Of a DNA stretch of 21,026 bases, positions 4,092-18,523 are shown in pieces. Under the pieces are notes generated by a model, which saw only the letters and a list, made by a program, of their open reading frames with translations, did not search any database and was not told where the DNA came from. Source of the DNA: a virus. A program made the translations under genes and the position numbers. The stretch spans positions 1-21,026 of IMG/VR virus record IMGVR_UViG_3300021349_000012, one strand, 5' to 3'. How positions within the stretch are numbered: position 1 is the first letter of the stretch; each line of letters starts with the position of its first letter.

Positions 4092-5165
4092 CTAAACTCC
4101 AGTAACACCAGTTAGGACACCCTGACGACGTGGAGACCAAGAAGTCAAGTTACCAAGTTGGATCAATTCACCGATTGTACCAAACTGATTAAGCGAAGAA
4201 CGAAGACCAGACCAACCAAAACCGTGGAAAGTTGACATTGGAGACTCTTCGTAAACACCATCAATTTGAGCAGAACCAAGTTGAACGTCTGAATATCCCT
4301 CTACGCCATTTGTTGGCCAGCCATAGAAATCAAGATAATTCTCGTTCAATGCATATAGATTAGCTGTTGTAGCTTTTTCATCCTTGCAGAAAGGAACACC
4401 TCTGAACGAAAGTGCAACGAAACCATTTTGACCGACTAAACCTTGACCCTGAGTCATTCCACCAGTAGCACCGATTGAAGGCATACCGCTCATAGAATAA
4501 TTCTCACGAATTGTAGGTGTAAGAAGTTGCTCATATAGAGACCAAACATTCTTAGGAGAAACATATAGATTGACGTGGAACTTCTGTGAACCAGATGAAG
4601 TAGCATCAGTCAAAGTAGCAAGTTTCTGAAGTGTCAAAGTACCACCAGAAGCTGTCTTTGTTGCATTTAGGACAGGGTAAGTAGTTCTTGAAAGAGAACC
4701 AATTGTGATAACTGTTGAACCATCATCAACGATAGCACCAAGACCAATGTAGTCTTTGTTTGAGTTTCCTGTACCATCACCATAAAGAAGACCGCCGATT
4801 CCATCAGCCATTTCCTGCTCGATTTCCTCAAGGGACTCTTTGATCAAATCAACTTTAGCGTCAGCTGTTGCATTAGCAACCTGATCCATACCAGCAATAG
4901 CGAGAGGGATACGAACTGCTCTCATATCAAAAATAGCCTTTACCTTAGTGTTCAACTGTGCAGCACTAAAAGTGTCCAAACCACTGAACGAACTGAACGT
5001 ACCAGAACTCTTGTACTTTAGAGGCTTTCTGATGTCATAGCCTTTACCCTGTTTTGCATTTCCTAGGATACGAGCAGCAAGAATGTTGCTATTCAACACA
5101 TTGTCGACCACTTTTGGGATCAAATCCTCTTGAGTAATCGCTGTAACTTTATCATCAAATGTCAT
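4092..5165 (-). CDS. Major capsid protein (HK97-fold type)
   Basis: 357 residues. It forms the icosahedral shell. The evidence is the size, the gene order (scaffold-like gene upstream, decoration-like gene downstream) and the composition: an N-terminal region without a protease-type domain, a helical 'spine'-like stretch around residues 105-130 (AKVDLIKESLEEIEQEMADG), a Gly-rich variable middle (GMPSIGATGGMTQGQGLVGQ) and a beta-rich C-terminus containing STFHGFGWSGLRSSL. The fold name is an inference from the pattern. The start is ATG at 5163-5165 with AAAGGATTTTATC upstream. A dedicated TGATATAAT element and a long leader hairpin precede it, consistent with high expression. Confidence 0.85.
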   Translation of the reverse strand: MTFDDKVTAITQEDLIPKVVDNVLNSNILAARILGNAKQGKGYDIRKPLKYKSSGTFSSFSGLDTFSAAQLNTKVKAIFDMRAVRIPLAIAGMDQVANATADAKVDLIKESLEEIEQEMADGIGGLLYGDGTGNSNKDYIGLGAIVDDGSTVITIGSLSRTTYPVLNATKTASGGTLTLQKLATLTDATSSGSQKFHVNLYVSPKNVWSLYEQLLTPTIRENYSMSGMPSIGATGGMTQGQGLVGQNGFVALSFRGVPFCKDEKATTANLYALNENYLDFYGWPTNGVEGYSDVQLGSAQIDGVYEESPMSTFHGFGWSGLRSSLNQFGTIGELIQLGNLTSWSPRRQGVLTGVTGV

Positions 5166-6464: not shown

Positions 6465-8285
6465 TTATCCTTGTGGTATATTTTCTTGTATTGGTGTCTC
6501 TTCTGTTGGGTTTTGAGCCATAGAGGTCTTGCCTTGCATTGCTTCAGCTGGGTTCGGAGCTGTCTGCTCGTCTTCTAGCCCACATATCTGCATATATTTA
6601 GCAAAGCCATCTCCGTTTTGTCCTTCACCCATCATAAATGCTAACAGACGTTTAGCTTTTTCTTTTGGATTAGCAACGTCTAAGTCCTCAAACATTGATA
6701 GTGGATCAATTCCTTTGATAGGAAGTAGTGCCATTGCCGTGTCTCTGCGTGCTTTCTTATCTACTGTATTGGCTTTGATGTTTACTAGTATTCCGTCAAC
6801 GATCAAGCCATTGTTGATAGTCTGTTCTACGAGTTTGCCATCATCGCCCATCTGTCTTGAATAGTGATCTTCATCGTAGTAGACCTTCATCATCTGGACA
6901 GACCATTGAGCCATCTCCCAGACAACACGATCTACAACAGTAGTAACAAGATCGTCTGCCATTGTGATATCGCCTTGCATCATCAACTGACGAGCCATAC
7001 CAGACATATGCACAGAAGCCATCTCGCCTTTAGAAGCCTGATGGGTTGCGAACTTAGAATCAATATTTTCTTTGACCATTGCCATATCTTGTAGAAGCAT
7101 CTGTGATGGTGGAGCACCAGCGATTGAGCCATAAGCCTTGGAGACATCTTCTGTATTGAACCATAGAGACTCTGATGGGTCATTGGTGACAGAAGCAGCA
7201 TCTTCTTTGGTCATACCATTGCCGAATATCTTTTTAGGTACACAGGCATCTGATATCTCTGTGATCTGTCGTCCACGTTTGTTGACTATCTTCTGTAATG
7301 GCATTGTCTGCTCAACAGCGGTAGTATCGTCCATTGGTCCGTGACCTAAGTTCTTATGAGAAAAGAATATATATGGCTTGCGTGGTCGATCAAAGAAGTT
7401 GTGATATACGTGCTTAGTCTCAAAAGCTGAATTATCCTTCTTCAAGAACTGAGCATCATATCCGTCCCAGTCCCAGTTAGGATTTTTCATCTTATCTAAA
7501 ATAATATTGCCATACTTCCAGCAAACACCTTCAAATATTTGACCTTTCTCGTCATACCAAGTAAACCAGACTTCTAAATATCGAAGTTTAGAAGCATATC
7601 TTTTAGAGGACATCTGCTTATATCCGAGTTGCTGCATCAATTCGTCTTTCTTAGCAGGAAACTTAGCAAGGACTACAGCAGTTGGCTCTTCAATCCACTC
7701 AGCGATAAACTCCATATTGTCAGCCGTAAAGCCGTCTTGTGGTATTTTAGCTGTATGATCAATGACCATACGATTGATATCACAGAGTTCATAAATATAA
7801 TCACCGTTCTCGCCTTTATTGTTGTCCCAGCGATATTTGATAGCCGCTAGATAGTTGATATCGTGCATTCTAAGACCATCTTTGACAATACGTTGTCCAG
7901 CATCACAGTTGATACGTCGGCTTAGTTCATCTTGTAATGCCTTGACACTATCAACGTCAGGACCATTGCAGATAATATCTGGCAACTTGTTAGAAGCCAT
8001 AGTGATCTTACGTTCAAGGTCTTCCCAGATCATATTGTCTTGATAAATAGGCTTTTGATAGTCATACATCTGACTTTCATCAATCTGATTACCAAGATAA
8101 AAGTCTTCGTTTAATTTACGACGACCTTTTAATTTGTTCTTTTCATAAAATTTATCTGAGTTGCTAATCTTTTCATTGAGTACAGAAATAAGATCTTTGT
8201 CTTCTATAGGCAAAGATAAAGCAGGCGTATCTACGACTACTCGTTCATCGTTTTTCTCTAGTTCTGATGCAGATGCTTCGTACAT
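6465..8285 (-). CDS. Portal protein
   Basis: 606 residues, the size of P22-like or related portals. It forms the dodecameric DNA channel at one capsid vertex and docks terminase. Visible features: an early DFYLGNQ segment near residue 62, followed by a predicted wing/stem region; a long central region with aromatic and acidic character (YLEVWFTWYDEKG); helices around residues 400-450 with QASKGEMASVHMSGMARQLM, comparable to the crown/stem-side helices of portals; and a low-complexity Gln/Glu/Pro C-terminus. Its position between terminase and scaffold/capsid genes is the expected one. The start is ATG at 8283-8285 with TTAGGATATTT upstream. No nuclease or protease domain is fused. Confidence 0.85.
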   Translation of the reverse strand: MYEASASELEKNDERVVVDTPALSLPIEDKDLISVLNEKISNSDKFYEKNKLKGRRKLNEDFYLGNQIDESQMYDYQKPIYQDNMIWEDLERKITMASNKLPDIICNGPDVDSVKALQDELSRRINCDAGQRIVKDGLRMHDINYLAAIKYRWDNNKGENGDYIYELCDINRMVIDHTAKIPQDGFTADNMEFIAEWIEEPTAVVLAKFPAKKDELMQQLGYKQMSSKRYASKLRYLEVWFTWYDEKGQIFEGVCWKYGNIILDKMKNPNWDWDGYDAQFLKKDNSAFETKHVYHNFFDRPRKPYIFFSHKNLGHGPMDDTTAVEQTMPLQKIVNKRGRQITEISDACVPKKIFGNGMTKEDAASVTNDPSESLWFNTEDVSKAYGSIAGAPPSQMLLQDMAMVKENIDSKFATHQASKGEMASVHMSGMARQLMMQGDITMADDLVTTVVDRVVWEMAQWSVQMMKVYYDEDHYSRQMGDDGKLVEQTINNGLIVDGILVNIKANTVDKKARRDTAMALLPIKGIDPLSMFEDLDVANPKEKAKRLLAFMMGEGQNGDGFAKYMQICGLEDEQTAPNPAEAMQGKTSMAQNPTEETPIQENIPQG

Positions 8286-8292
8286 AAATATC

Positions 8293-8535
8293 CTAACTTA
8301 TAATATATTTAGTGTGACATTTCTGATAATATGTTCCGCCATCGTAGTCTTTCTTTTCAATCGATCCTTTACATTGTACCACGACCGGACTCTTTATTTC
8401 ATTTTCTCCGACTACAATAGATTTAATATCTCCATAGTATTCAAATACTATTTTACCACAACGACAGCATCTAAATGTATTTCTTAGTTTAGTCGGTTCA
8501 AGCCAGACGCTTATTGAGAGGTCTTTATCTGTCAT
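8293..8535 (-). CDS. Small zinc-ribbon-like (Com-like) protein
   Basis: 80 residues. Cysteines lie in FRCCRCGK (residues 22-29) and later in QCKG and QKCH, giving a CxxC plus distal Cys arrangement suited to a single zinc ribbon. The pattern is reminiscent of Mu Com, a zinc-binding translational activator, but similarity is only at the motif level. The ATG at 8533-8535 overlaps the TGA of the upstream gene. It is the last gene before the portal. Confidence 0.6.
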   Translation of the reverse strand: MTDKDLSISVWLEPTKLRNTFRCCRCGKIVFEYYGDIKSIVVGENEIKSPVVVQCKGSIEKKDYDGGTYYQKCHTKYIIS

Positions 8536-8795
8536 TTTGCTTTTCTTTTTAGCACGATAGAAGCTGACTCTTTATCAGCCTTATCACGTTTGCCATTCTC
8601 TTCCATCTTTTCAAGACGAGTATAATAGTCTGGAATTTCTTTAAGATGAGCCAAGACGATTTTAGCTGTCATCTCTGGATCACCTTTTGTGATGTCTTTA
8701 TGCTCTTGCTCGACTTTCATTCCCTGACAAAATTGGTCATAACTGACTCGAGACCAATCTACGTTTAATTTATCGCCGACTTCTCGTTCGGTCAT
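8532..8795 (-). CDS. DUF5661-like protein
   Basis: 87 residues. The core VDWSRVSYDQFCQGMKVEQE followed by TAKIVLAHLKEIPDYYTRL matches the consensus I know for DUF5661, a small helical family found in phages and some bacteria with unknown function (Gly-Met-x-Val-Glx-x-Glu-His, then Lys-Ile-x-Leu-Ala-His-Leu). The C-terminus is a lysine-rich helix. The ATG at 8793-8795 overlaps the upstream gene (AAAGGAATGTAATG), so the two are coupled and share the ribosome-binding site AAAGGA. Confidence 0.75.
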   Translation of the reverse strand: MTEREVGDKLNVDWSRVSYDQFCQGMKVEQEHKDITKGDPEMTAKIVLAHLKEIPDYYTRLEKMEENGKRDKADKESASIVLKRKAK

Positions 8796-9018: not shown

Positions 9019-9027
9019 ATTATATCA
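9019..9027 (-). promoter_or_regulatory. Extended -10 motif TGATATAAT, copy 4
   Basis: CATTTGTGATATAATA, in which the TGA of the motif is also the stop codon of the large terminase gene (9025-9027). The predicted start is at about 9012, about 20 bases before the ATG at 8989. It would drive the portal/capsid transcription unit separately from terminase. Confidence 0.5.
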
Positions 9028-10518
9028 CAAATGTCGTTCTGCACTTTTATGTTTCAATTTCTTCTTAAACTGTTCTGTCAGGTCGACAGTCGTTACTTGA
9101 TTGCCTGTTTGTTGCCAAGGCATACGCTTCTGAATTGGTTTGGCTTGTTTGACTACGCCAGAGTTTATATTCCAAGTAGCGGCAATTGTCTTGAAGCCTA
9201 GAGATACTGAGTCATAATCATCATCGCCATCTACTTTAGCTACGTCTTCAGGATTAGTATTAGAATAGACCATTACGGGAAGTGTCTCGATCAGATTTTT
9301 GCATTTAGGATGTATCTGCCAGTATGGTTTGCCGTCTGTAGCTATAGACAAGTTCTGATGAGTCAAAGCCACACGATTAACACGAGCACCAGCACTTAGC
9401 GTATCACCCCTTATTACTCTGCAACCTGTCGGCTGGATTATACGTTCAAATATTTTAGCAATTGACTCCTTGCCTTCTTTGTCAGCATAACAATCGTGAG
9501 GCAAAACTATAAATTCAGTCTTTTCCATCTTGGTAAATATTGCGATCTGTTGTGCCCATAGTTCTGGAGATGTCTTGTTCTGGTGTAGCTCTCTATAAGA
9601 GTAAATTCTTGATACTCCCCATTGGTTCTCTGGACAGATAGCAAGCCATTGGGCTGAACCTGCGTGACCATAGCCCCAGTCAAAGCCTATAATCTTTTTA
9701 CAATCTTCCAACGGATAGTCAAATCTATCAGTGACGTGTACATCTTGCATAAACTCAGAGAATACCTGACCGATGAATACATCCCAGCTACCCATACGCC
9801 AAGCCTTCCAGAGCTGATAGTTGACTTCCTTTAGTTGATCAAGACGTTTGATATAGTTCGGATCGTTCTTTGATAGTGTTGGGTTGTTATCAAGAGTAGC
9901 CGGAATAAATATTCTCATTACTCCATTTTCATCTTTGTAGGGTAGTCCCATCTGTGCTTTTTGAAGAACACCCATCTCATCAATGTATTCGTATGATCGT
10001 AGTTCAGCAGTATCAATAAAGCGTTTCTTGACCCATCCGTGACCAACACCGCCGGGATTACCAGTTGAGAACACTTGAGCCGGCAAGGAAGGCTCAGAAG
10101 ATCGACAAGATGATATAAGCTGCAAGTATCTTTGCTCGTTTGGTATCTGTGTTAGCTCTTCAATCAGTTCTCTATGATATTCGTGTCCTTGGTACTTAGT
10201 ATAGGCTTGATCGTCTCCAAGATGTCCTGAGCGGATTATAGCACCACTCTTAAATGTTATGACTGAGGGCTTGTAAGCAAATGTAGCTCCATATCCCCTA
10301 AACCATACTCTTGCTCTATCCATCCAGTCAGAAAGATCGTCAGCGTTCTTACGAATAACTAATCCTCTGTATTTTGGGTTCATTACAGGTTTAGATATCC
10401 ATAGTAGTCCAGCAGCCGTCTTGCCTGGACCACGAGAGCCACCAAAAAAAGTCTCAAATATATCACTTGAAACTTTCAATGCTTCTTCTTGAGGACCTTT
10501 ATGAGGTTTTATTATCAT
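9025..10518 (-). CDS. terL: Terminase large subunit (packaging ATPase/nuclease)
   Basis: 497 residues, a normal full length. The motor docks at the portal, hydrolyses ATP to pump DNA and cuts concatemers. N-terminal ATPase: Walker A GGSRGPGKT (residues 26-34), Walker B region ELIEE (117-121) with the catalytic acid pair, and coupling motif STGNPGG (151-157). C-terminal RNase H-like nuclease: FDWGYG with Asp280, HDC around 341-343, and the acidic cluster DGDDDYD around 430-436. This is the Terminase_6-type arrangement. The start is ATG at 10516-10518, which overlaps the small-subunit gene by 20 bases. There is no strong Shine-Dalgarno, so coupling is likely. Confidence 0.95.
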   Translation of the reverse strand: MIIKPHKGPQEEALKVSSDIFETFFGGSRGPGKTAAGLLWISKPVMNPKYRGLVIRKNADDLSDWMDRARVWFRGYGATFAYKPSVITFKSGAIIRSGHLGDDQAYTKYQGHEYHRELIEELTQIPNEQRYLQLISSCRSSEPSLPAQVFSTGNPGGVGHGWVKKRFIDTAELRSYEYIDEMGVLQKAQMGLPYKDENGVMRIFIPATLDNNPTLSKNDPNYIKRLDQLKEVNYQLWKAWRMGSWDVFIGQVFSEFMQDVHVTDRFDYPLEDCKKIIGFDWGYGHAGSAQWLAICPENQWGVSRIYSYRELHQNKTSPELWAQQIAIFTKMEKTEFIVLPHDCYADKEGKESIAKIFERIIQPTGCRVIRGDTLSAGARVNRVALTHQNLSIATDGKPYWQIHPKCKNLIETLPVMVYSNTNPEDVAKVDGDDDYDSVSLGFKTIAATWNINSGVVKQAKPIQKRMPWQQTGNQVTTVDLTEQFKKKLKHKSAERHL

Positions 10519-10981
10519 TAAATTTATCAGTTATTGATTGGGCTGACTTATACTCTTCTGGCATATAAATAATCATTGGCTCAATTTTCTCGCCGTCAGT
10601 AGTGTGGTCTACGTTCCGCATATCTCTCCAGCCAAAGTTATTAGTGAGGTTAAATATAGCTCCAGTAGCCTGTTTTTCCATCAATCTAGTCTCTACATCT
10701 TCATGCACTCTTTCTCTCGCGGCTTTTATAGCACCGAAATAGGCTTCTCTGTGAGAGTAATTATTTAGGGTATCCCTATCTATTCCCATCGATCTAGCTA
10801 ATCCCGACATAGTATACGGTGCTGGATCTATCACTTCTATAACTGACTCCGCTTTGGGACTATAGACGTGCTGTATTCTATTGTCACAGAACATAAAATA
10901 TTCATCAATCTTATCTTGTAGCTCTTTAAGTGTCTTGTATTTTGGCAACCTTATTGGAGGCATATTTTTTGGTACTGACAT
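10499..10981 (-). CDS. terS: Terminase small subunit (Gp3-type)
   Basis: 160 residues. It recognises the packaging site and loads the large subunit. The segment PYTMSGLARSMGIDRDTLNN (residues 55-74) is a helix-turn-helix, followed by a helical EARERVHEDVETRL-like stretch and then AIFNLTNNFGWRDM. This is the pattern of the DNA-packaging Gp3 small-terminase family. The gene is directly upstream of, and overlapping, the large subunit. The ATG at 10979-10981 has AAAGGATTACTAAA upstream. Confidence 0.9.
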   Translation of the reverse strand: MSVPKNMPPIRLPKYKTLKELQDKIDEYFMFCDNRIQHVYSPKAESVIEVIDPAPYTMSGLARSMGIDRDTLNNYSHREAYFGAIKAARERVHEDVETRLMEKQATGAIFNLTNNFGWRDMRNVDHTTDGEKIEPMIIYMPEEYKSAQSITDKFNDNKTS

Positions 10982-11954: not shown

Positions 11955-12141
11955 TTTTCTTCATTTCTTCTAATCCATAGAAATCTTCATTAAAAAATTC
12001 ATCAAGTCCTTTTGCTAAGTCACTTATTAATTCTTCTTGTAACCTTATAAATTCTGCATTCATTACTTTCTCCAAAATCTTTGCAGTTTCTTTATCTTTT
12101 TTATCTTTTGGTGTTACTTTAAATTTAGTCATTTTGTCCAT
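11947..12141 (-). CDS. Small helical hypothetical protein
   Basis: 64 residues, Lys/Asp/Glu-rich, with a helical centre ETAKILEKVMNAEFIRLQEE and an acidic C-terminal half (AKGLDEFFNEDFYGLEEM). No domain recognised. The ATG at 12139-12141 overlaps the upstream gene; an ATG three codons later (MTKFKV, preceded by GGACAAA) is an equally plausible start. Confidence 0.6.
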   Translation of the reverse strand: MDKMTKFKVTPKDKKDKETAKILEKVMNAEFIRLQEELISDLAKGLDEFFNEDFYGLEEMKKND

Positions 12142-12343
12142 ATATTTTAGGCTTACTATATTTTTGCCAATTTAATAGGTATTTCTTTTTGCAAGTCCCA
12201 CATTCAATATATTCATCGTGTCCGATCTCTGCCTCTACTTGTTCGTGGCCACAAGGTAGTTTAATAACATTCTTTGGCTGAGTGGTATGCCAAGACTCGT
12301 TCATTATCTGATCAATATATTTTGGATCAATTTGCGGATACAT
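12125..12343 (-). CDS. Small zinc-ribbon-like protein downstream of GroEL
   Basis: 72 residues. LPCGHEQVEAEIGHDEYIEC followed by GTCKKKY provides a C-x-x-H ... C-x-x-C arrangement that would hold one zinc ion. Residues before and after are helical or basic. The ATG at 12341-12343 lies inside the GroEL gene (17-base overlap), so it is translated with it. The family is not recognised; similar short ribbons occur widely in phages. Confidence 0.65.
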   Translation of the reverse strand: MYPQIDPKYIDQIMNESWHTTQPKNVIKLPCGHEQVEAEIGHDEYIECGTCKKKYLLNWQKYSKPKIYGQND

Positions 12344-13940
12344 CTTTTTCTTCGATTATTATAGTTGAGGTTGTTAAGATCATTATCGCAGAACTAGAGG
12401 CATTGCGAAGGGCTGACTTGACTACTTTGGTCGGGTCAATAATTCCTGACTTGACCATATCCTTACTCTCTCCATCCATTACATCAATTCCCCAGTTCTC
12501 GTCTTTTGTGCAATCGAACCAAAATGCTTGTAATCGTTCTAGCATTTGACCAGAATTATAGCCTGAGTTCTCCATTAAAACCTCAAATGGCTTTTGGCAA
12601 GACTTTACAATTATACTCGCTCCGATGGCAATTTCTCCATCTAATCCGTGAGGAACGCTGCTAATACATCGAATCAACGTAGTCTCTCCGCCTGGAACTA
12701 TACCATCTTCGCAAGCTGCCTTGACTGCACTAATGGCATCAATACAGGCTTCCTTTTTCTCTCGAACTTCTGCATCTGATGAAGCACCAACATTGATAAT
12801 AGCTATTCCTGAGGTCAATTTGGCTAGTCGTTCTTGTAATCTCTCTCGGTCAAACTCTCTGTCCTCGTTTGCAAGTTGGTTTTTTATAAGTTTAACTCTC
12901 TCTTTCAAATCTTTAGCATCTCCAGCACCACCTATAATAGTTGTTGAATCTTTTGTTGAAATGATCTTTTTAGCTCTGCCAAAGTAGTCAATCTTAAATT
13001 CATTTAGTTTAATTCCTAAATCCTTTGAGATCATTGTTGCACCAGTAGCAGTAGCAATATCTTGTAAGAAGTCTAATTGTTGTATTCCAAATCCCGGTGC
13101 TTGAATACACAGAGGCTTTAGTCCACCATTTACTTTATTAGAAATAAGAGTAGCCAGAGGAGCACCGTCAACACCATTTGAGATTATAACAAGTGAAGTG
13201 TTTTCAATTAAGTTGGCTTTAAGTCCAGCATCGTAAGCTGCAAAGATACTCATAAACTCTTTCATATCGCTAATCCGAGCATCAGTAATCAAGATGTATG
13301 GATTTTCAATCTCTGCTTCGCCTGTCTCGTTATTAGTTATGAAGTATTTATTTTGCCAACCTTTATCAAAAGCCATACCCTCTTTATAATCGATTGACAT
13401 ATCTGTTGAGCCGGACTCTTCTACAGTAATAACCGCATCTCTACCTAATTTTTTGATAGCTCCAGCGATCAGTGAGCCGATCTCTTCATCTTGAGCTGAG
13501 ATAGTAGCAATCTGTAAAATATTCTCATCCTTGATTGGAATTGACATTTCTTCTACTCTTTCGATGATCTTGTCTACTGCTATTTCAATCCCCTTGCGCA
13601 GCATTCGAGCATTAGCACCAGCTACTATGTTTTTATTGGCTTCTTTGGCGATTGCGTAAGTGAGAATTGTGGTCAGTGTTGTACCATCTCCGACTGCATC
13701 CATTTTGTCAGCGGCACTCTTAATTAGTTCAGCACCAAGATTTTCAAATTTATCTTCTAATCCAACACACTCGCGAGATACAGATACGCCATCGTGAAAA
13801 ACGGCAGGTTCTCCCCATTCTCTACCGATAGCTACATTTGAACCCTTTGGACCAAGCGTGCTTGAGACTGCTTTAAATACCTTTTCAGCACCAGATAATA
13901 GTTTATTTCTTGCATCTGTTCCGTATAATATCTTTTTCAT
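12327..13940 (-). CDS. groEL: Chaperonin GroEL (phage-encoded 60-kDa subunit)
   Basis: 537 residues, close to the 548 of E. coli GroEL. Subunits form rings that encapsulate and fold proteins using ATP. Key elements are intact: STLGPKGSNV (residues 27-36), DGVSVSRE with Asp50, the ATP-binding VGDGTT (83-88, Asp85), the apical KPLCIQAPGFG, the intermediate-domain GASSDAEVREKKEACIDAIS with Asp401 (equivalent of ATP-hydrolysing Asp398), VPGGETTLIR, and DPTKVVKSALRNASS near the C-terminus. Odd features: it has Trp at 42, 195, 474 and 483, seven cysteines, and no Gly-Gly-Met tail (ends EEKDVSAN). The start is ATG at 13938-13940, overlapping the previous TAA. It lies in a phage operon with GroES, so it likely folds capsid proteins. 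Confidence 0.96.
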   Translation of the reverse strand: MKKILYGTDARNKLLSGAEKVFKAVSSTLGPKGSNVAIGREWGEPAVFHDGVSVSRECVGLEDKFENLGAELIKSAADKMDAVGDGTTLTTILTYAIAKEANKNIVAGANARMLRKGIEIAVDKIIERVEEMSIPIKDENILQIATISAQDEEIGSLIAGAIKKLGRDAVITVEESGSTDMSIDYKEGMAFDKGWQNKYFITNNETGEAEIENPYILITDARISDMKEFMSIFAAYDAGLKANLIENTSLVIISNGVDGAPLATLISNKVNGGLKPLCIQAPGFGIQQLDFLQDIATATGATMISKDLGIKLNEFKIDYFGRAKKIISTKDSTTIIGGAGDAKDLKERVKLIKNQLANEDREFDRERLQERLAKLTSGIAIINVGASSDAEVREKKEACIDAISAVKAACEDGIVPGGETTLIRCISSVPHGLDGEIAIGASIIVKSCQKPFEVLMENSGYNSGQMLERLQAFWFDCTKDENWGIDVMDGESKDMVKSGIIDPTKVVKSALRNASSSAIMILTTSTIIIEEKDVSAN

Positions 13941-14158
13941 TATTCATCTCCTTCTTGTTGCATAGTTCGTGCCTCTTCTAATTGAGCCATTAAAAAGTTA
14001 TAAAATCCTTTGACTGCTAACATATCTTTTTTAGTCAGATATGGCATTAGCTTTCTTTTCTTGTTAGCGTCTGCAAAGTTTACCCAAGAGTCCATTACAA
14101 AGTTCTCTACTTGATCTAGGAACTTCAATATCAGTTTCTGATCTGCAATCTCTTTCAT
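13940..14158 (-). CDS. Unknown protein between GroES and GroEL
   Basis: 72 residues: MKEIADQKLILKFLDQVENF, then VMDSWVNFADANKKRKLMPY, then a helical region ending AQLEEARTMQQEGDE. Predicted all-alpha, no cysteines, no known motif. Its ATG at 14156-14158 overlaps the GroES stop (ATGA) and its TAA overlaps the GroEL start (TAATG), so it is made in tight coupling with both chaperonin parts. That position makes a client, adaptor or regulator of the chaperonin worth considering, but no sequence evidence states it. Confidence 0.7.
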   Translation of the reverse strand: MKEIADQKLILKFLDQVENFVMDSWVNFADANKKRKLMPYLTKKDMLAVKGFYNFLMAQLEEARTMQQEGDE

Positions 14159-14427
14159 ATTCCCTCCTCTATTATTGCTAAAACATCTTCAAACTTAACA
14201 ATCTTATACTCTTCGCCTAACCAGCTGAATGATGAACTGTGATATTTTGGATAAACGATTGTTTGTCCTGTAGAACAAGAACATACTTCGTCTTTCTTAT
14301 TTTCCCCGCATTTAATTACTTCACCAATCATCGACTCTTTCTCATCTGCTGACACTATCTCAAAGTTTCCGATCTTGTTCGTTTGCTTATCCTTAATCAA
14401 CACGTACCCTGCCTGAGGTGAAATCAT
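14155..14427 (-). CDS. groES: Co-chaperonin GroES
   Basis: 90 residues, near the normal 97. It caps the GroEL ring. The beginning SPQAGYVLIK matches the first strand of Cpn10. Residues about 12-31 form the mobile loop that docks onto GroEL (NKIGNFEIVSADEKES aligned with the IVL-type loop, here FEI). Next come GEVIKCG and a roof-loop region carrying CSCSTG, then TIVYPKYHSSSFSWLGEEYK and IVKFEDVLAII, the classic Cpn10 closing strands. The start is ATG at 14425-14427 with AAGGG upstream, right behind the HNH gene. Confidence 0.92.
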   Translation of the reverse strand: MISPQAGYVLIKDKQTNKIGNFEIVSADEKESMIGEVIKCGENKKDEVCSCSTGQTIVYPKYHSSSFSWLGEEYKIVKFEDVLAIIEEGI

Positions 14428-14430
14428 TTT

Positions 14431-14943
14431 TTACCCTTCCTTATTTAATTCGTTTATTACATCTTCTAAATAACTATCTGTCAGTTTAACTAACTTCTTG
14501 CTTTCTGTTTGAACGTCCCCTAGCCAATCAATTCCCTTTGCTATTATTATCTGGTTTTGCAGAAACTCTGGACATTTTCCGTGTAGTGCTCCGTGCTCGT
14601 CGTTGGTTACCGGTATGCCATTAGGCACATAGTATCTGGTGGCGTTGCTGTGGCTTTTATATATCCAATGGTGGATTACTTCTGTTGGCAATCCGCTAAT
14701 GATTGAATATGGGTATTTTTTTATAAGTTCTATCTGGTAAGTTTTATCAGCTTTATGTCTTAATCTATCGTTTTCTTTGCCACTTATTTGACGCATAGTT
14801 GCCGTTTTGCTGCGTTTAATACTGTCTTGCCATAGACGATAGCATTTGTAGTTAGGGTGTGTTTGCTGGAGACTTGTGGTCGGATTATCAATTATCTCGT
14901 TGCAACCTTTACAAATTCTAATCTTTTTACTTTTCACTTTCAA
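14431..14943 (-). CDS. HNH-type zinc nuclease, NinG-like
   Basis: 170 residues. CKGCNE near residue 11 begins a CxxC zinc knuckle. The catalytic-looking segment EVIHHWIYKSHSNATRYYVP then NGIPVTNDEHGALHGK (residues about 88-122) has paired His, a downstream Asn and a closing His, as in HNH nucleases and the Rap/NinG recombination protein of lambda. Such proteins cut branched or nicked DNA during phage recombination. The start is uncertain: TTG at 14941-14943 overlaps the ribbon-helix-helix gene by 17 bases, GTG at 14937 is an alternative. It follows the SSB and recombination genes, which fits a recombination role. Confidence 0.75.
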   Translation of the reverse strand: MKVKSKKIRICKGCNEIIDNPTTSLQQTHPNYKCYRLWQDSIKRSKTATMRQISGKENDRLRHKADKTYQIELIKKYPYSIISGLPTEVIHHWIYKSHSNATRYYVPNGIPVTNDEHGALHGKCPEFLQNQIIIAKGIDWLGDVQTESKKLVKLTDSYLEDVINELNKEG

Positions 14944-17766: not shown

Positions 17767-18363
17767 TTACTTATTTGCTTCATAAAATGCTTGTGCAAAC
17801 TCTGGATAACACATACTTCTTGCGTTCATTCTGTCGTAAGGGTCTCGGTGTGTCATAGGACTAATAATACTATTAACATGTCTGTTGATTGGTTTTGGTG
17901 TATCAGGAAATGGTTTTTTAGGTTGATTGAACAATCCCCATAAAGAAGTTTGTTTTGAATAATCAGCACCAAATTCGTGAGGTGAATATTTGTATGGTGG
18001 AGTTCCGAGAAAGCTCTTCAACGCTCCGCTTCCAGGATTCTCTATCACCCAGAATTTCAAGTTACTTTTGGAGAAGTGTCCGACTGTTGGATATTGGCAC
18101 TCCCAGATAATCCTTAAACATTCTTTAACCAATCTCATACCCTCTATAAAGTCTCGTTGTGTCTTGGCATTTGACCGAGCGATAGAGAACATCGTGCAGG
18201 GTGGATTCGCTATTATCCCATAAACTCCTTTAGGTGGGTGATAATTTTCTACGCCAATATCTCTACCGACTAAACGAACATCATATCCAGCGTCTTTATA
18301 TGGCTTCGAGTCACTGCCAATATCTGCACAAAGATGAAGTATTATTTTATCGTAGTTGTTCAT
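17767..18363 (-). CDS. Compact DNA cytosine-5 methyltransferase-like protein
   Basis: 198 residues. Residues 8-35 (ILHLCADIGSDSKPYKDAGYD) correspond to the SAM-binding start. ANPPCTMFSIARS (52-64) resembles the PCQ-type catalytic loop with Cys56. WVIENPGSG (105-113) matches the ENV-type motif VI, and the end FGADYSKQTSLWG and YPEFAQAF match the compact phage-type family. It would methylate cytosine, possibly protecting phage DNA. It is much shorter than host C5 methyltransferases and lacks a large target-recognition domain. The start is ATG at 18361-18363; an earlier ATG at 18397-18399 would overlap the Cys-rich gene by 32 bases. Confidence 0.75.
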   Translation of the reverse strand: MNNYDKIILHLCADIGSDSKPYKDAGYDVRLVGRDIGVENYHPPKGVYGIIANPPCTMFSIARSNAKTQRDFIEGMRLVKECLRIIWECQYPTVGHFSKSNLKFWVIENPGSGALKSFLGTPPYKYSPHEFGADYSKQTSLWGLFNQPKKPFPDTPKPINRHVNSIISPMTHRDPYDRMNARSMCYPEFAQAFYEANK

Positions 18364-18367
18364 AGTG

Positions 18368-18523
18368 TTATTTCTCAATATAATTATCGCACTCATCAAA
18401 GTTAGTTAAATTCTCTCCAAAGTCGCAATAAGACTGATATTCGGAGTTGCTACCTTGCTTTCTGGCACAATCCTTTGGACAAGCTTTATTCACACATCGG
18501 CAGTAGTCATCTGTTAATTTCAT
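18368..18523 (-). CDS. Small cysteine-rich hypothetical protein
   Basis: 51 residues with six cysteines: DDYCRCVNKACPKDCARK in the first part and SYCDFGENLTNFDECDNY in the second. The arrangement CxCx4CxxxC followed by two more Cys could bind metal or form disulphides; the family is not recognised. ATG at 18521-18523 with AAGGAATAACACT upstream, a start context also seen in part before the next gene (AATAACACTATGAA). Confidence 0.65.
   Translation of the reverse strand: MKLTDDYCRCVNKACPKDCARKQGSNSEYQSYCDFGENLTNFDECDNYIEK

Follow-up and report, generated by a model that had tools for sequence, protein, structure and literature searches.

Chaperonin genes encoded by a virus raise the question of whether they belong to the virus at all and, if they do, where they came from and what they are used for. 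The DNA analyzed here (hereafter, the window) is an entire virus record, a linear fragment of 21,026 bases, in which complete genes for both GroES and GroEL lie together. We consider it likely that these genes encode a GroES/GroEL pair that works as a Group I chaperonin, that was captured from a host among the Patescibacteria, a group of ultra-small bacteria, and that would serve as a fixed morphogenesis module for folding head proteins. In the following, the gene layout, the distribution of the cassette among related phages, the features of its proteins and their ancestry are examined in turn, and the alternatives are weighed.

Organization of the chaperonin cassette

The main genes of the window are all encoded on the minus strand. 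The cassette consists of GroES (Cpn10, 90 aa; 14155-14427), a 72-aa gene that we refer to as orfX (13940-14158) and GroEL (Group I Cpn60, 537 aa; 12327-13940), followed by a zinc-ribbon-like gene of 72 aa (12125-12343), which was recognized by eye from its CxxC-type motif and which comes after GroEL in most core members of the phage lineage described below. The reading frames and the Pfam and PHROG matches agree that both chaperonin genes are intact, as a preliminary description of this DNA had stated. GroES overlaps orfX by 4 nt (ATGA), orfX overlaps GroEL by 1 nt (TAATG) and GroEL overlaps the zinc-ribbon-like gene by 17 nt; these overlaps, together with a purine-rich Shine-Dalgarno-like stretch upstream of each of GroES, orfX and GroEL, make translational coupling of the three genes plausible. 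A scan for promoters and terminators was uninformative.

The cassette sits upstream of the genes for packaging and head formation, all of them on the minus strand: the terminase small subunit (10499-10981; Pfam GP3_package, 9.6e-17, and PHROG terminase small subunit), the terminase large subunit (9025-10518; Pfam Terminase_6N and Terminase_3, and PHROG terminase), the portal protein (6465-8285; homologous to a gene annotated as portal protein in phage MW202566) and the 357-aa major capsid protein (4092-5165; PHROG major head protein, 6.2e-42, and NCBIfam capsid_maj_Podo, 1.5e-41, above its cut-off). The capsid gene begins 7.2 kb past the GroEL stop, somewhat closer than the earlier figure of about 8 kb. 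The cassette had also been placed between a recombination nuclease and the packaging genes; the packaging side of this statement holds, but the supposed nuclease, a 170-aa ORF upstream of GroES (14431-14943, minus strand), is HNH-like by eye only and has no family match in Pfam, PHROG or NCBIfam. Also among the surrounding genes are a single-strand DNA-binding protein, an exonuclease-like protein, a DNA methyltransferase-like gene (17767-18399, minus strand; PHROG, 1.1e-23) and a DUF5661 gene (8532-8795, minus strand), which shows 81% DNA identity over 84 bases to the Patescibacteria genome L131. The DUF5661 family was found in 19/145 Patescibacteria genomes and in 1/14 control genomes.

The cassette in a lineage of tailed phages

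The cassette is found again, with the genes around it, in the contigs L002, L003 and L009, in which GroEL is 94%, 76% and about 50% identical to that of the window, and the same gene order is present in the complete circular phage MW202566 of 38956 bp. Occupancy was counted on loci that had been fetched by terminase alone, whose large subunit served to define the lineage, and that were not chosen for GroEL; these loci were divided by the strength of their portal match (strong meaning E below 1e-60), and only those extending over 4.5 kb upstream of the terminase were counted. GroEL was present in 12 of the 13 contigs with a strong portal match, and in none of the 14 contigs with a weak or no portal match and equal upstream length. 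In almost every lineage member, it lies upstream of the terminase at a distance of 1-4 kb, and the longest cassette-bearing contigs measure 38-41 kb. GroEL distances correlate with those of the portal (r 0.85) and the capsid protein (r 0.80; permutation p <= 0.0005), and GroES and GroEL distances correlate with each other (r 0.72), although joint inheritance and functional coupling give the same signal in such correlations. We are fairly confident that the cassette is a fixed part of a tailed phage lineage with genomes of ~38-41 kb, and the presence of terminase, portal and capsid genes on the same record, together with the synteny in the lineage, identifies the GroES/GroEL pair as phage-encoded.

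The preliminary description had named as its own refutation that the genes are a recently acquired piece of a host genome or stem from a chimeric assembly. The sole point in favour of this is that the window comes from a metagenome and is a fragment without assignment. Against it, independent contigs share the cassette and its neighbours, as does a complete circular phage genome; no bacterial GroEL came close, and the base composition of the cassette resembles that of the adjacent genes. The synteny across the independent contigs of the lineage refutes this explanation, and the dN/dS values given below and the co-divergence with portal and capsid point in the same direction, so that the probability we leave to it is vanishingly small.

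In three other contigs, the terminase large subunit frames are far longer than those of their relatives (L016, 8079-10037; L210, 10507-13884; L206, 6495-8744), perhaps owing to inteins or insertions.

Features of GroEL, GroES and orfX

The GroEL of the window is a full-length Cpn60 with equatorial, intermediate and apical parts, which defines it as a Group I chaperonin. It matches Pfam Cpn60 above the curated cut-off (E 1e-58, spanning 23-531 of 537 residues) and PHROG groEL (6.9e-122), and its score lies above the NCBIfam subfamily cut-offs and below the TIGR02348 equivalog cut-off. The AlphaFold2 model (pLDDT 85) superposes on solved GroEL chains with a TM of 0.86. The key ATPase residues noted in the preliminary description, D50, D85 and D401 (D52, D87 and D398 in E. 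coli), are present and invariant in all rows examined; the GDGTT motif and the catalytic aspartates are therefore recognizable, with T91 replaced by L in the subgroup of the window. The alignment indicates that the apical groove for GroES and substrate stays hydrophobic (Y199W, Y203, F204, L234M, L237F, L259 and V263I), with S at V264. The protein has no GGM tail and contains a short apical insert; an equatorial insert, AFWFDCTKDENW, which lies just past the ring-contact helix, is shared by the window and L002 and is absent from L003. GroEL is under purifying selection, with a dN/dS of 0.044 between the window and L002, as compared with 0.043 for the terminase.

GroES matches Pfam Cpn10 with an E value of 4.8e-10, which exceeds the curated cut-off. 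In an alignment of 20 phage GroES proteins, the tripeptide FEI of its mobile loop is in register with IVL/IVV/LYL of relatives, so that both the Cpn10 domain and a mobile loop with a hydrophobic tripeptide are present, whereas the roof hairpin is apparently absent. The dN/dS of GroES between the window and L002 is 0.11, a rough value because the gene is short.

The gene between groES and groEL, orfX, is accessory, although it is genuine and subject to selection. Its dN/dS between the window and L002 is 0.016 (a rough value, given the few sites), and its model (pLDDT 83) is a predicted two-helix hairpin, with no PDB match by fold or by sequence. Among the lineage contigs compared, orfX was found only in the window and, at the same place, in L002, L003 and L009; in other members, groES and groEL overlap directly or are separated by unrelated genes, which rules out orfX as part of every cassette. 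Confined to four related contigs, the extra gene does not belong to the general folding machine. Because the genes in the gap differ between phages, the gap looks like an insertion spot. By eye, the gap genes of L206 (2856-3407), L212 (7562-8014) and L222 (6217-6672) are HNH-like, and that of L214 (7628-7996) is YopX-like.

Ancestry of the phage GroEL and the probable host

Trees had been proposed as a check of long residence in phages, and the outcome supports it: the phage GroELs form a clade of their own, apart from those of any host. In a tree of 104 GroELs, the lineage phage proteins make up one side of a branch and adjoin five Patescibacteria proteins (L277-L281). When long phage branches were left out and a smaller tree was rooted on other bacteria, the core phages nested inside the Patescibacteria as the sister group of L277-L281, with a support of 100/98, and an AU test rejected a grouping of all Patescibacteria together without the lineage phages (p 2e-5). 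Directly ahead of the first catalytic aspartate, where E. coli has K51, H is found in 37/39 lineage-type phage GroELs and in 30/45 Patescibacteria; H occurs at this position in 0/34 other bacteria and 0/10 named-phage GroELs, of which 32/34 and 10/10, respectively, have K. The GroES tree shows the same order with weak support. By these GroEL trees and the AU test, the GroEL of the lineage descends from a Patescibacteria GroEL. Separately, the GroELs of the virus contigs L204 and L208 fall in different Patescibacteria groups in the 104-GroEL tree, which suggests that host GroEL was captured on further, separate occasions.

Other phage GroELs group with those of their own hosts, as exemplified by Vibrio phage Va1 with Salmonella and Bacteroides phage DAC16 with Bacteroidetes, and GroEL kinship is thus a fair, although not certain, sign of the host. 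Additionally, the terminase, portal and capsid proteins are related to those of a phage recorded as infecting TM7/Saccharibacteria. On the basis of the GroEL ancestry and this TM7 phage, Patescibacteria are probably the present or past hosts. Searches for a direct link through prophages or CRISPR found none: no repeats were present near the short DNA matches that four Patescibacteria genomes gave, and a terminase scan of all genome contigs yielded six loci, none with the GroEL of the lineage. In two Patescibacteria bins with terminase matches, one of them with 66% GC, the contigs lacked the portal, capsid and GroEL of the lineage in the stretches read. The host assignment therefore rests mainly on one gene family and the TM7 phage. 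Some Patescibacteria groups read TGA as glycine; since TGA is the stop codon in 8/35 genes of the window, these groups are disfavoured. GroEL is present in 171/192 Patescibacteria genomes, so that a host without GroEL is ruled out as the general case and the phage copy fills no gap common to the phylum.

The ring-ring interface

The single-ring E. coli GroEL mutant SR1 carries the changes R452E, E461A, S463A and V464A at the major inter-ring contacts (PMC5653362). At 452/461/463/464, the window GroEL has E/N/G/Q as against the canonical R/E/S/V, so that all four SR1 positions are non-canonical; they lie in an ungapped stretch, whose register is anchored by the conserved P450, N457 and G459. 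In other bacteria, 452 is R in 34/34 and 464 is V, I or L in 33/34, whereas the core phages have Q at 464 in 10/12 and E at 452 in 7/12. Patescibacteria retain R at 452 in 40/45 and have often lost the hydrophobic residue at 464. The drift of the interface thus appears to have started among the hosts and to have advanced further in the phages. Position 464 in most sampled Patescibacteria is occupied by K, W, E or another residue, and weak ring contacts may be common in this phylum.

With all four SR1 positions altered, the ring-ring interface of the phage GroEL is predicted to be weak or absent, and the protein may work as a single ring or as an easily splitting double ring. A single ring was reported for an ancestral Group I chaperonin in which three comparable changes occur (PMC12696368). 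GroEL E461K, by contrast, was crystallized with 14 chains (entry 2eu1), which indicates that single changes need not split the rings. Tentatively, and with considerable doubt, we suggest that the GroEL and GroES captured by these Patescibacteria phages form a natural single-ring machine for head assembly, in which the ring contacts have been eroded as in SR1 and GroES has been kept.

Proposed function and alternatives

We propose that the groES-groEL operon passed from a Patescibacteria host to a phage ancestor and that it would have been retained there as a module for morphogenesis, immediately upstream of the genes for packaging and head formation. The apical domains of the GroEL ring would bind unfolded phage protein, ATP binding would recruit GroES through its FEI mobile loop, the bound protein would fold inside the closed chamber and ATP hydrolysis would reset the ring. 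GroES and GroEL would thus interact with each other; the ATPase residues, the apical groove and the GroES loop are conserved. The substrates would be the capsid and other head proteins, which would be made from the same strand at the same time; the capsid protein is the most likely one, and the co-divergence of GroEL with capsid and portal fits this role. In T4, the size of gp23 is the reason for its special chaperonin need. The 357-aa capsid protein of the window would fit a normal chamber, so that size, unlike in the case of gp23, is not the reason here; the phage would more likely carry its own chaperonin so as not to depend on that of the host, which may be sparse or mismatched.

The chaperonin could instead be an auxiliary gene that raises the general folding capacity of a gene-poor infected cell, and not one for head assembly in particular. 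Group I chaperonins have many substrates, and the sites of chaperonin genes vary among phages, with immuto having its gene beside one for a DNA polymerase, Vibrio phage Va1 between tail genes and the TM7 phage in yet another place. However, the place beside the packaging and head genes is fixed in the present lineage, and GroEL divergence tracks that of portal and capsid; we consider general folding an unlikely explanation, albeit one to be taken seriously. Far less probable is that the phage proteins act mainly with the host chaperonin, either in mixed rings or by capping host GroEL in the manner of T4 gp31. The host GroEL is likely to be present, and the phage GroEL shares ancestry with it through the Patescibacteria, but the phages have retained both partners, which co-diverge, and phages using host GroEL encode a GroES homologue only (PMC7185714). 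Folding of head proteins by a pair belonging to the phage is the explanation that we favour.

Comparison with known systems

The pairing itself, described earlier as out of the ordinary, turns out to be established: some phages encode homologues of both GroES and GroEL (PMC7185714), annotated pairs exist in immuto, elemo and Calle_1, and phage GroES/GroEL pairs are thus already known as a kind. As far as our tools show, the new elements are the fixed place in a lineage of small genomes, the Patescibacteria ancestry and the SR1-like interface; a literature search on chaperonins of Patescibacteria phages found none, with a 2017 virioplankton chaperonin study falling outside its scope. It is mainly larger phages in which chaperonins are known, whereas here the full pair is fixed in genomes of ~39 kb. 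Patescibacteria phages are hardly known, and the cassette provides a marker by which more of them could be found. With its natural SR1-like residues, it also allows a test of whether one ring suffices for a GroES-dependent chaperonin in nature; until now, this question has been approached with engineered GroEL and mitochondrial Hsp60.

Among individual phages, MW202566 (Caudoviricetes sp. cthkR962, with an annotated groEL) resembles the window in having a GroES-like gene and groEL followed by terminase, portal and capsid genes on a circular genome of 39 kb; its GroEL is 48% identical to that of the window, it has no gene between the GroES-like gene and groEL, and the literature search found no published function for it. 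The TM7 phage DolZOral124_53_65 (MG269973; 38.8 kb), with its related terminase, portal and capsid proteins, has a Cpn60 gene and, before it, a gene with weak likeness to GroES, but this Cpn60 is only 26% identical and is located elsewhere, the head genes being on the other strand. Flavobacterium phages immuto and elemo and Cellulophaga phage Calle_1 likewise carry both chaperonin genes close together, and Calle_1 also has a small gene between them, which by eye bears no resemblance to orfX; these phages belong to other families with genomes of 60-160 kb, and their GroELs, 30-38% identical to that of the window, fall elsewhere in the tree.

The chaperonins gp146 of phage EL and gp246 of phage OBP were found as single rings in the cycle or on purification (PMC5934643, PMC7185714). 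Like the window GroEL, they are phage-encoded Group I-like chaperonins, but they come from giant phages with GroEL only and share about 26% identity with it along part of the sequence, and the EL chaperonin does not bind E. coli GroES. SR1 and the window GroEL are altered at the same four positions and share E at 452, whereas SR1 has A/A/A at 461/463/464 and the window GroEL has the natural residues N/G/Q. T4 gp31 is a phage co-chaperonin linked to capsid folding that works with host GroEL; the phage of the window, in contrast, supplies GroEL as well.
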